From the NCBI GenBank assembly GCA_028824415.1, contig JAPPDX010000048.1, positions 24,395 to 88,394 on the forward strand: a stretch of 64,000 nt of DNA. The letters are read 5' to 3'. The DNA comes from a bacterium (GTDB lineage: Bacteria > Actinomycetota > Acidimicrobiia > Acidimicrobiales > CATQHL01). The translations under genes were made by a program, and so were the position numbers. This document shows, piece after piece, positions 4,145 to 45,919 of the stretch. Position 1 is the first letter of the stretch, and each line of letters begins with the position of its first letter. The notes under the pieces are model-generated. The model saw only the letters and a list, made by a program, of their open reading frames with translations. It had not been told where the DNA came from and ran no database searches.

Positions 4145-4417
4145 CGGTCCACCCGGCCAACTCGCTCGCGGCCCTGAGCCGGCGGGGCGCCTGAGCCCGA
4201 ACCTGCGCCGGAATCCCCTTTTCCCGGGGCGCCCGGCAGGCCGGTGGCGCCAGGGCACCGTGACGTGTTCCCGATCGGCGAGCCCGCTGGTTAGGTTGTC
4301 AACAAGCACCATGGTCTCTGGGAATCTCTTCGCCAATGCTGTCAACGCGCGTACGGCCTCGGGCGTCTGTACGTGCGTAGGTTGAATGAACCTGCAGCGA
4401 GCCATGAGCCTGCAGCC

Positions 4418-4969
4418 ATGAGCGCCCCGCAGCGGCGAGGCGGCCCACGAGGAAGCGAGACCCAAGATGACCTGCTGGTCCGGCTATTCGCCGACCATTA
4501 CAAGGATCTCGTTCGTCTCGCCTCGTTGCTTCTCGACGATGTGGGGAGCTGCGAGGAAGTCGTGCAGGACGCCTTCGTGAAGATGCACACCCTCACGAGC
4601 CGCCCCGAGGAGGGCAAAGAGGCCGCCTACCTGCGCAGCATCGTCATGAACGGCGCACGCTCGCGCATGCGCAGGCGCATGGTGCGCCGGCGTGTGGTAC
4701 CCGAGGCGCCGACACCTACCGACAGCGCAGAGGTGGGCGCGCTCGAGCGGTTGCAGAGCGACGCGCTGATCGACGCCGTCCGCAACCTGCCGCGACGGCA
4801 GTCAGAAGTGCTCACCCTGCGGTACTACCTGGACCTCAGTGAAGCCGAGATCGCCGAGACCCTCGGCATCTCCGCGGGATCGGTCAAAACGCACGCCAGC
4901 CGCGGCCTGGCGGCTCTGGAGCGGAAGCTGACATCGGCCGAAGCGGACACGGACGAGGGAACCTCGTGA
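4418..4969 (+). CDS. RNA polymerase sigma factor, ECF/SigE-like sigma-70 family
   Basis: Region 2 (FADHYKDLVRLASLLLDDVGSCEEVVQDAFVKM) and region 4 (LPRRQSEVLTLRYYLDLSEAEIAETLGISAGSVKTHASRGL). Confidence 0.92.
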   Translation: MSAPQRRGGPRGSETQDDLLVRLFADHYKDLVRLASLLLDDVGSCEEVVQDAFVKMHTLTSRPEEGKEAAYLRSIVMNGARSRMRRRMVRRRVVPEAPTPTDSAEVGALERLQSDALIDAVRNLPRRQSEVLTLRYYLDLSEAEIAETLGISAGSVKTHASRGLAALERKLTSAEADTDEGTS

Positions 4970-6762
4970 ACATCGAGGAACGCCTCAGGAGTGCCTTCAC
5001 TCAGCGGGCCGAGGACGTCGAGGTGTCGCCCGGCGCCCTGTTCGAGATCCAGCGCCGCCTCGGCCGCCGGCGCCGCGTGCCCCGGGTGCCCGAAGTGCGC
5101 CTGCGGCCGGCAATGGTCCTGGCGGCAGCGGCATGCGCGGCAATCGCCGTCGTTGTCTCGATCTCCGTGACAGGTCCCACTGCGACACCGCCGATTCAGA
5201 CCGACACCCCACCCGTTGCCGCTACCGCCGATCCGGACGCGGTGGCACCGACCACGGCCGACCCGCCGCCGACCCCTCAACCGACGACGCCGGCTCCCCC
5301 CTCCGTCACCCAGGTGGATCCTCAGTCCGGCGGCTCAGGGCAGATCACCACCACCACGCCGCCCCCGGCACCCCCCACACCCCCGGCACCCCCGACGTCT
5401 CCGGCGCCGGCAGAACCGACACCTCCAGCCGCAACCACCCCGACGACCCAACCCGACCCGGAGAGCGAGACGGTCAGCGCGGAGGTGCCGGAGTGCCCGG
5501 CGGATCCCGGTGGCGACGGCACCGAGACCTCGTCGACCCAGGTGACTGTTTACTTCGCCTGCGGTGGCAACGACGCGGTCCCGCGACTGCGATCCGCTGC
5601 AACCAACAACCTTCCGACGGCGCTGGGAATCCTCCTGGGCGGCCCCAACGAGGCCGACAGCACGGCCGGGTTCCAAGGACTCAGCAACAATTCGGCCACG
5701 ACAGCGACAACCATGACGACCGACCGGTGGGTGACGATCGATCTCCCGGCCGGCCTCACCGGAGCATTCGAGAGCGACGGAGGCATCACAGCCCAGCAAT
5801 TCCTCGCACAACTCAACGCCACGGTGTTCGAGTTCGGCGAGTTCGATGTTGCCGAATACCGCCTCGACGGTGACTGCGCGGCGTTCGGCAACCTCGTCGG
5901 CGCGTCCTGCCAGATCCACATCCGCGACGGCGACGGTTCCACCAGCCACACCAGCGAGTTGACCGCCCACACGATCGGTGACGTGGACTCGCTGATCCGT
6001 GCCGAACCCGCCGACAGCGCCGCCGAGTTGGGCTCCCTGAGCGACGGTGCCCGCCTCACCGACGGCCGTTCCGGCAGCGGCAGCGAAGCCTGGGCCGAGG
6101 TCGTGACCGCAGCCGGCGACAGGGGCTGGGTCTCGACTGAGACAATCGTGGCGCAGCCGCTCTCCATCGACAGCTCGACAGGAGCGACGATTGCGAGCCT
6201 GGCGCGCCGGCTCACAACCGGTCCCGGGCTCGAGGCGTCCGCCTTCAGGCCGGCAGGTCTGGTGCTCCGATGGGGAGCCGACGCCAGCGACCTCGCCGTC
6301 GTGTCGACCACCGGCGCGGCGGCCGGCGGCGACTGGTGGTACACCCCGGTGGATACGCCCTCGCCACGGGACGGGTCTCCGCAGTCGTCGCTGGCCGACC
6401 TGCTGTGGATCGACGGCAGCGGCGACGACGCCACCGTCACGGTCAACGCGCCCGGTCCACTCGGCGAGCCGCACGGCGACTTCGCCTCGCTGGCCTACGT
6501 CTCGATCTACCGGCCGGCGATCGAGACGGGAACCCTGCCGCCTCCCCTCGCCCCCACCCCCACAACGACGACCCAGGCTTCGACCTCCGAGGAGTCCGAC
6601 CTGCCCCCGGCGCTTCCCACGCCGGCCGACGAGACCGACAGCGCCGACGACACCGAGGAGGAACCGGATCCGCCCCGCGCCCAGATCAGCGTGATCTTCG
6701 ACTTCCTGTCACCCGCCGGTCCCCGTGTCGCCGCAGTGGAGGCGATCTGGATCCAGCCGTGA
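4966..6762 (+). CDS. Membrane-anchored protein with possible anti-sigma-like N-terminus, Pro/Thr-rich linker, GerMN-like and SH3-like segments
   Basis: GTG start overlapping sigma stop; single TM (AMVLAAAACAAIAVVVSISV), PT-rich linker, GerMN-like region (ALGILLGGPNEADSTAGF...VTIDLPAGL). Confidence 0.7.
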   Translation: MNIEERLRSAFTQRAEDVEVSPGALFEIQRRLGRRRRVPRVPEVRLRPAMVLAAAACAAIAVVVSISVTGPTATPPIQTDTPPVAATADPDAVAPTTADPPPTPQPTTPAPPSVTQVDPQSGGSGQITTTTPPPAPPTPPAPPTSPAPAEPTPPAATTPTTQPDPESETVSAEVPECPADPGGDGTETSSTQVTVYFACGGNDAVPRLRSAATNNLPTALGILLGGPNEADSTAGFQGLSNNSATTATTMTTDRWVTIDLPAGLTGAFESDGGITAQQFLAQLNATVFEFGEFDVAEYRLDGDCAAFGNLVGASCQIHIRDGDGSTSHTSELTAHTIGDVDSLIRAEPADSAAELGSLSDGARLTDGRSGSGSEAWAEVVTAAGDRGWVSTETIVAQPLSIDSSTGATIASLARRLTTGPGLEASAFRPAGLVLRWGADASDLAVVSTTGAAAGGDWWYTPVDTPSPRDGSPQSSLADLLWIDGSGDDATVTVNAPGPLGEPHGDFASLAYVSIYRPAIETGTLPPPLAPTPTTTTQASTSEESDLPPALPTPADETDSADDTEEEPDPPRAQISVIFDFLSPAGPRVAAVEAIWIQP

Positions 6763-6813: not shown

Positions 6814-7437
6814 GTGAGAAGTTGTCGACCTGTTCGAACCGCCCGCCCCGGAGCGGGCTCTCGAAGAACCCTCAGCGGCCTCGCTGTTGCTGTGCTGGCA
6901 ACCGGCGCAGTCATGCTCGCCGCCTGCGGGGGTGGCGAGCAATCCCAGGTCAGCACGGCGGCTCCGGCTGCCGACCCGACCCCTCCACCCGAGCCGGCTC
7001 CGCCCGCGCCCCCAGCGGCTCCCGGCAACGACCTTCCCGGGGTCACCGTCGTGGACGTCGTGAGCGGCGAGAGCCTCGTGCTCTCGTCGCTGGCGCCGGC
7101 CGACCGACCGATCCTGGCGTGGTTCTGGGCACCGCATTGACCGGTTTGCCGCCGGGAGGCTCCCGGCGTCGAGCAGTTCGCTCGAGACCACGGAGACGAG
7201 ATACTCGTCATCGGCCTGGGCACCCAGGACAACCTGGAGCTCGCCGAGGAGTTCGTCGCCTCAGCGGGGATCTCCTCGTTCCAGATGTTCTGGGATGAGT
7301 CGTTCGACTCGTGGGCTCAGCTCGGCGTGGCGTCCCAACCGGCATGGGCACTGTTCTCTCCCGCCGGCGAGTATGTCGAGGGTAGTTTCGGCGAGATCGA
7401 CACCGCGGGGGTGCTCGCCAGGGCCGCATCACTCTGA
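6814..7437 (+). CDS. Thioredoxin-like lipoprotein, probable selenoprotein (UGA at 7138-7140 read as Sec; UPVC motif)
   Basis: One frame from GTG 6814 to TGA 7435 if UGA 7138 is recoded: ...DRPILAWFWAPH-U-PVCRREAPGVEQFARDHGDEILVIGLGTQD...SQPAWALFSPAGEYVEGSFGEIDTAGVLARAASL; lipobox LAAC; cis-Pro motif downstream of the UGA. Confidence 0.85.
7138..7168 (+). promoter_or_regulatory. Candidate bacterial SECIS element, copy 1 (UGA plus downstream hairpin)
   Basis: 8-bp perfect stem CGCCGGGA (7150-7157)/TCCCGGCG (7161-7168), 3-nt loop GGC; 17 nt between UGA and loop. Confidence 0.75.
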
Positions 7438-7486
7438 CATCCGCCGCCGATGCACCACGCGCCGGATCGGTAGAGTCTTCGCAGCC

Positions 7487-8200
7487 ATGAACTGCGACGA
7501 ACAAGTCCGATTCGACAGCTCCGGCGGGGTTCGGTGCCGGGCACTCACATGGCGGATCATCGCCGTGACGGCCGTGGCGGCCGCGGTGGCGGCGTCCTGC
7601 AGCGGTTCGGAGACGACACAGTCGAGCCCGCAGCCGCCGGCTCCGGCAACGCCCGCCGCAGCGGCACCGGCACCGCCGGAGGGTGCCGCCCCGACGCCCG
7701 CCGAGAGCGCGGCACCGCCGGCACCCGCACCCGAACCCCCACCGCCGGCACCCGCACCCGAACCCCCGCCGCCGGCACCCGCCGGACCCAACGATCTCCC
7801 CACCTCGACCGTGGTGGACGTCTTCACCGGCGAGAGCCTCGTGCTGGCCTCGTTCGCTCCCGCTGACCGGCCCATCCTCGTGTGGGTCTGGGCCCCCCAT
7901 TGACCGGTCTGCCGCCGGGAGGCACCCGGCGTCGAGCAGTTCGCTCGAGACCACGGCAACGAAATCCTCATCGTGGGGTTGGGCACTCAGGACACCTTGA
8001 CCGAGGCTGAGAGCTTCGCGGCCATGACAGGGATCGGGTCGTTCCCGGTGGTCTGGAGCGAGTCGTTCGACCCGGCGGCGCTATTGGGTGTCTTCTCCCA
8101 CCCCGCGTGGATCCTGCTGTCGCCGTCGGGAGAGGTCGTCGAGCGCGGCGTCGGCGGCGTGGACGCGGCTGAGATATTGCAGAAGGCCACCGCTCTCTAG
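7487..8200 (+). CDS. Thioredoxin-like lipoprotein, probable selenoprotein (UGA at 7901-7903 read as Sec; UPVC motif), paralogue of 6814-7437
   Basis: One frame from ATG 7487 to TAG 8198 if UGA 7901 is recoded: ...DRPILVWVWAPH-U-PVCRREAPGVEQFARDHGNEILIVGLGTQD...SHPAWILLSPSGEVVERGVGGVDAAEILQKATAL; lipobox VAASC. Confidence 0.85.
7901..7931 (+). promoter_or_regulatory. Candidate bacterial SECIS element, copy 2
   Basis: 7-bp stem CGCCGGG (7913-7919)/CCCGGCG (7925-7931), loop AGGCA; 16 nt between UGA and loop. Confidence 0.75.
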
Positions 8201-45517: not shown

Positions 45518-45574
45518 ACCGCAATCGTACCGAGCCCGCCGGTCGGCACCGGGTGCCTCCGGGTGGCCGGTCGG

Positions 45575-45919
45575 TCAATCCCAGCCGAGTTCCTCGAGAC
45601 GCTCGTCGTCTATGCCGAAGTGGTGGGCCACCTCGTGGATGACCGTGATCCGCACCTGCTCCACGATCTCGTCCTCGTCGTCGGAGAGGGCACAGATCGG
45701 CAGGCGGTAGATGAAGATGCGGTCGGGCATGATCATCCCGCCGTAGTGCTCGCGGTCGGTGAGCGGGATGCCGTCGTAGAGGCCCAGCAGTTCGGGATCC
45801 TCCGGCGACTGGTCCACGACGAACACCGCCAGGTTGTCGATGGCCTCGGCGAGCTCGTCGGGGATCAGGTCCAGCGCCTCGGCCACGAGGGCCTCGAAGC
45901 GCTCGTGCGACACCTCCAC
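45575..45919 (-). CDS. Metallopeptidase family protein (zincin-like)
   Basis: 114 aa; VIHEVAHHFGIDDERLEELGW. Confidence 0.9.
   Translation of the reverse strand: MEVSHERFEALVAEALDLIPDELAEAIDNLAVFVVDQSPEDPELLGLYDGIPLTDREHYGGMIMPDRIFIYRLPICALSDDEDEIVEQVRITVIHEVAHHFGIDDERLEELGWD

Follow-up and report, generated by a model that had tools for sequence, protein, structure and literature searches.

Thioredoxin-like selenoproteins carrying selenocysteine (Sec) at the first position of a UxxC motif are an already known kind of protein (PMC13188914, PMC2398784, PMC1088965), and those listed include the Thiol-disulfide isomerase-like (cd02966), Redoxin (PF08534) and Trx-like 1 proteins (PMC13188914, PMC2398784). 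Like the proteins studied here they have a thioredoxin fold, with Sec first in UxxC and with Cys homologues being widespread. No actinobacterial lipoprotein family is named among them (PMC13188914, PMC2398784). Relatives may be among the members of some of the families listed, for instance 'Redoxin family protein UxxC'. The DsbF (3ios) and DsbE/MPT53 (1lu4) proteins of Mycobacterium tuberculosis are likewise exported proteins of thioredoxin fold with a WFWAPWCPTC-type motif, having Cys at the first motif position where the proteins described below have Sec. The ResA, CcmG and TlpA thiol reductases belong to the same fold family (TM ~0.8) and have a CxxC active site, but their sequence similarity is lower and none of the NCBIfam models reached its cut-off with the two proteins, the best score with those for ResA, DsbE (CcmG) and TlpA being about 30 bits against cut-offs of 123–359. 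The WAxxUGC_long ResA-like selenoprotein model (NF041054) was matched by 13 of 56 family members at E ≤ 0.001; its motif is UGC in place of UxxC, and it was not found among the matches of the second of our two proteins. As to the RNA element needed for Sec insertion, the published bacterial SECIS model has a loop of 3–9 nt with G in one of its first two positions, a stem of 4–16 bp, a spacing of 16–37 and an energy of −7.5 kcal/mol or lower (PMC13188914, Fig. 2).

Within the window, by which we mean the whole stretch of 64,000 nucleotides analysed here from a genome of the order Acidimicrobiales, two adjacent genes very probably encode secreted, thioredoxin-like proteins that contain Sec, the insertion of Sec itself being what we infer. 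The sequence-only reading had described one of these, copy 2, as a single frame from ATG at 7487 to TAG at 8198–8200 with a sole internal TGA at 7901–7903, directly before PVC, and both the sequence and its translation agreed with this, the TGA standing at residue 139 and PVC being encoded by CCG GTC TGC. The neighbouring copy 1, for which an identical interruption had been noted, is likewise broken once, by TGA at 7138–7140, immediately 5′ of PVC. It was also clear, as had been noted, that the ORF caller splits copy 2 into 7295–7903 and 7973–8200, and standard gene calling breaks both copies. The two share the motif WAPH-U-PVC, with TGA at the first position of the thioredoxin UxxC. Copy 1, running from GTG at 6814 to TGA at 7435–7437, is itself terminated by TGA, so that UGA would be used twice in one message, once internally and once as terminator. 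The parts of the two genes are as follows.

6814–7437, + strand: copy 1, paralogous putative Sec-containing thioredoxin-like lipoprotein, GTG start, TGA terminator
6925–6927, + strand: copy 1 lipobox cysteine codon (LAA-C), predicted from sequence
7138–7140, + strand: copy 1 predicted Sec codon (TGA)
7435–7437, + strand: copy 1 terminator TGA; the sequence 3′ of it is no more stably folded than shuffled versions (z −0.24)
7487–8200, + strand: copy 2, putative Sec-containing thioredoxin-like lipoprotein, 237 residues with TGA as Sec, stop TAG
7598–7600, + strand: copy 2 lipobox cysteine codon (AAS-C) at the signal peptide end, from sequence and the family-wide lipobox count
7601–7783, + strand: copy 2 proline/alanine-rich linker, from sequence
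7784–8197, + strand: copy 2 thioredoxin-fold domain, from profile matches, structure model and structure search
7901–7903, + strand: copy 2 predicted Sec codon (TGA), first position of UxxC
7910–7912, + strand: copy 2 resolving cysteine codon of UPVC, an invariant alignment column

The products of the two copies were found to be 59% identical upon alignment. In the DNA, identity is 96% over the 54 bases that begin with the UGA, as compared with 60–75% in the flanking blocks, and this highly similar block is where the likely SECIS element lies.

Using a profile of both copies, relatives were found in 100 of the 248 genomes of the order, most matches having exactly one internal TGA. Of 91 stretches extracted from the window and from these relatives, 90 open their UxxC motif with UGA. 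The remaining one is no Cys homologue but a signal peptide that matched spuriously, at 4.6 bits, which leaves 90 genuine members. As the TGA has the same position in all of these 90, its sharing is not due to chance. In alignments the UGA falls on the active-site Cys of DsbF and on that of 14 Cys homologues. Among the matches listed for the order, a UGA form occurs in 78 genomes, while 12 have Cys forms alone.

The breaking of both genes by standard gene callers is what would be expected if they were pseudogenes or held sequencing errors, with the TGA a real stop and the downstream half decaying. That reading has next to no probability in our view, as the same TGA recurs in the 90 members from many families, no further in-frame stop occurs within the domain, and dN/dS downstream of the UGA was 0.14–0.35, whether the copies were compared with each other or each with its orthologues in the genus. 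Decay in related genomes, with frameshifts or a lost downstream half, was looked for; the genus orthologues proved intact, with frames conserved on both sides of the TGA, which refutes decay as well as sequencing error. In the same comparisons, dS was 0.08–0.28 over the 17 codons that directly follow the UGA versus 0.65–1.35 beyond, as expected for an RNA element within the coding sequence. The sequence-only reading had argued against error or decay from the TGA being shared by two diverged paralogues; its conclusion stands, through the wider family, but the argument itself was weaker than stated, because the two arose by duplication inside the genus, and the TGA is already present in relatives with a single copy.

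An open frame across the TGA would also follow if one of the ordinary amino acids (Trp, Gly or Cys) were inserted at UGA, either because the code had changed throughout the genome or by read-through of a general kind. We regard this too as very remote, since TGA terminates 9 of the 11 neighbourhood genes checked as well as 45 of the 90 family members, in which UGA would thus serve both for Sec and as stop in one message, and since the internal TGA is aligned to the active-site Cys of DsbF. Two further observations speak against it, namely that the Sec machinery (tRNASec, SelA, SelB and SelD) is present, and that the Cys forms are without the hairpin described below; a code change was accordingly rejected.

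The genome from which the window derives holds a tRNASec with anticodon tca, a SelA gene adjoining that of SelB on the same contig, and a SelD that is itself of the Sec type, its frame containing a TGA where such proteins usually have it, at GAG-U-AGK (G000:C7:22770-23711, L128). About 34 nt after the UGA of this selD gene there is a hairpin, GCGCAG-GUU-CUGCGC, that resembles the far hairpin of the lipoprotein genes. Across the order, tRNASec was found in 146 and SelA in 148 of the 248 genomes. Among the matches listed, tRNASec was present in 72 of the 78 genomes with the UGA form versus 2 of the 12 having only Cys forms (Fisher p = 8e-8, a value that overstates the independence of the genomes, as these are related). 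Five of the six UGA-form genomes without tRNASec have a SelA match, and in the sixth (G170, 83% complete) neither tRNASec nor SelA was found; the two genomes having tRNASec together with listed members of the Cys form are G019 (L141, L144) and G127 (L151). The UGA form thus goes with the Sec machinery and the Cys form with genomes that lack it, and the tree, as drawn, needs at least six changes between Sec and Cys. The Sec form being more frequent than the Cys form in the sampled genomes, and about 60% of these having Sec machinery, selenium use is general in the order.

Two hairpins follow the UGA in each copy.

7150–7168, + strand: copy 1 hairpin 1, CGCCGGG-AGGCU-CCCGGCG
7169–7185, + strand: copy 1 hairpin 2 (likely SECIS), UCGAGC-AGUUC-GCUCGA
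7913–7931, + strand: copy 2 hairpin 1, CGCCGGG-AGGCA-CCCGGCG, in a register that varies among relatives, with its apical loop 16 nt from the UGA
7932–7948, + strand: copy 2 hairpin 2 (likely SECIS, from covariation and conservation), UCGAGC-AGUUC-GCUCGA, apical loop 34 nt after UGA

Hairpin 1 was initially preferred as the SECIS element, because it is the more stable of the two (−13.5 and −13.9 kcal/mol in the window copies, versus −8.0 for hairpin 2) and because in both copies, with 7 bp and the loop 16 nt after the UGA, it fits the published bacterial model. The hairpins found at its place among the relatives also surpass synonymous-codon controls in stability (mean z −2.07). Their registers shift, however, so that only 60.6% of positions are paired in one fixed register, and several slid registers do equally well on covariation. 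It was the comparative counts that moved the assignment to hairpin 2, to which both the covariation and the phylum-wide recurrence belong, and we now consider it rather improbable that hairpin 1 is the SECIS element.

Hairpin 2 spans 29–45 nt after the UGA (bases 31 to 47 when the T of TGA is counted as 0). In an unbiased mutual-information scan of 89 members and 162 columns, with about 12 600 column pairs, the two strongest pairs fell on this hairpin with z ≈ 15, the next pair having 7.3. These two pairs lie on one diagonal, giving a 6-bp hairpin with a five-base loop AGUUN, and one of them links the wobble base of one codon with the second base of the codon five further on. In an alignment of 82 sequences, 98.0% of the cells were paired, with changes on both sides in four of the six pairs and 30 doubly changed cells, whereas slid registers gave 16–46% pairing and no shuffle equalled the real count. 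Five sequences of a WAPWU subgroup were excluded from this alignment, as there is no such hairpin in them, but were included in the counts of pairing in UGA versus Cys forms, in which at least five of the six positions were paired in 85 of 90 UGA forms, compared with one to three of six in the Cys homologues. Its stability also lay above that of synonymous-codon controls for this hairpin (mean z −3.02, with 89% of the sequences in the best 5%). Among 20 UGA homologues of the wider phylum that had played no part in defining the hairpin, 14 paired all six positions and three more paired five, their stems being quite different and their loops mostly AGUU or AGGU. With its loop AGUUC, spacing of 34 and energy of −8.0 kcal/mol hairpin 2 falls within the bacterial consensus (PMC13188914), from which it differs in having its loop near the far end of the permitted spacing and in the separate hairpin that intervenes between UGA and SECIS. 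Hairpin 2 is, as judged from these comparisons, the likely SECIS of both copies, so that the UGA aligned with a functional Cys, the full Sec machinery and a candidate SECIS stem-loop after the UGA, all used in recognizing bacterial selenoproteins, are found together here. It is conceivable, though speculative, that the element is composite, with the far hairpin (AGUU/AGGU loop, 34–35 nt from the UGA) bound by SelB and the nearer one, drifting in register but favoured in its presence, shortening the path so that the bound factor would reach the ribosomal A site.

Some further observations were made on this element. Among the phylum relatives (L160–L179), AGUU and AGGU loops alternate at the same hairpin position. 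Members of the WAPWU subgroup of the order (L119, L125, L127), being without the AGUU hairpin, have instead CUGC-GGUC-GCAG, read by eye, which resembles the classical GGUC loop. A covariance model of the element, when run against the own genome, recovered the four family members together with one extra match inside the window (45518–45577, minus strand, E 4e-4), rejected as a false positive since it sits at the apparent ordinary TGA stop of a metallopeptidase-like gene.

With regard to the protein, a simple pattern found a lipobox in 83 of the 90 members, three of the remaining ones being cut by contig ends; in the window these are LAAC (copy 1) and AASC (copy 2). The thioredoxin-fold domain of copy 2 was modelled with a mean pLDDT of 96.7. 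The nearest solved proteins by profile were DsbF (E 8.5e-29) and MPT53/DsbE (E 2.6e-24) of M. tuberculosis, and the best structural match in the PDB was again DsbF (TM 0.81), followed by ResA. A thioredoxin fold, a CxxC-type motif and an export signal, as in the exported DsbF/DsbE-like proteins, are thus all predicted here from sequence and model. The earlier proposal of a Sec-containing thioredoxin-like lipoprotein was borne out by the machinery, the SECIS covariation, the co-occurrence and the selection. In the mechanism that we propose, both genes would be expressed as full-length selenoproteins, with SelB carrying Sec-tRNASec binding the in-coding stem-loop (hairpin 2, whose AGUU loop lies at its apex, 34 nt beyond the UGA) so as to direct Sec insertion at the UGA. 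The product would be exported and lipid-anchored via its lipobox cysteine, the proline-rich linker would hold the domain off the membrane, and the Sec of UxxC would attack while the Cys resolves, in extracellular thiol/disulfide (or peroxide) chemistry.

Our leading proposal for the direction of this chemistry, held with a little under even confidence, is that the protein works as a reductase, its reduced state being maintained by a membrane carrier of the CcdA/DsbD type. VKOR was not found in the six genomes of the genus, all drafts, and a DsbD_TM protein was found in the same six (the match in the own genome being weak, at 30 bits), which leans to a reducing role. Sec in UxxC generally lowers the redox potential, which likewise speaks against an oxidant, that is, a disulfide-forming protein like the mycobacterial DsbE and DsbF. 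These two are nevertheless closest by both sequence and structure, and they aid oxidative folding in vitro (PMC3853704); we treat the oxidant role as possible but doubtful. That the protein is a peroxidase depending on Sec, or scavenges peroxide in the cell envelope, seems unlikely given the CxxC-type active site and with the nearest structures being DsbF and ResA rather than peroxiredoxins, although weak Redoxin and AhpC-TSA Pfam matches were seen and many Sec thiol proteins reduce peroxides. No description of this lipoprotein family was found in the open-access literature, and NCBIfam does not name it. A large family of such selenoproteins, in the order and across the phylum, has apparently gone uncatalogued, and in the order this exported family is hidden from standard annotation because gene callers cut it at the UGA. 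It is unusual in the dominance of the Sec form, in the remote placing of its likely SECIS, with another hairpin in between, and in its repeated tandem duplication, and the far, strongly covarying hairpin offers a clean comparative data set for SelB recognition in these bacteria.

In the tree, copy 2 groups with its genus orthologues in a single clade (100/100), nested in the one containing copy 1 and the orthologues of the latter. The tandem pair goes back to the stem of the genus. Both copies are present in G098 and G208, where the contigs end between them, and a single copy lies between the same neighbours in G229 and G158. Upstream of the pair in the window are two further genes.

4373–4969, + strand: ECF sigma factor (Sigma70_r2, Sigma70_r4_2), a neighbour conserved only within the taxonomic family
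4966–6762, + strand: 598-aa protein, overlapping the sigma factor gene by 4 bases, with only a sub-threshold SH3_3 match; probably a membrane-anchored partner of the sigma factor

The suggestion that the lipoproteins form an envelope redox module with this sigma factor pair held in so far as the linkage recurs in three genus-mates (G098, G208, G229) and in G158, of another genus in the same family, but no ECF relative was found beside lipoprotein family members of other taxonomic families, where MerR, a bifunctional nuclease, FtsR and GcvH on the opposite strand are the neighbours that are conserved. Being confined to one family, with other neighbours elsewhere, the linkage looks like inherited gene order, and a dedicated redox module with the ECF sigma factor is unproven. 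The tandem pairs of other families arose separately according to the tree, and such repeated duplications provide natural pairs in which to ask what Sec brings to a protein outside the cell. The own genome also holds, on another contig (C137), a second tandem pair of UGA-containing members (L048 6459 and 7490), diverged from the pair in the window and located beside amidohydrolase-like and luciferase-like genes.
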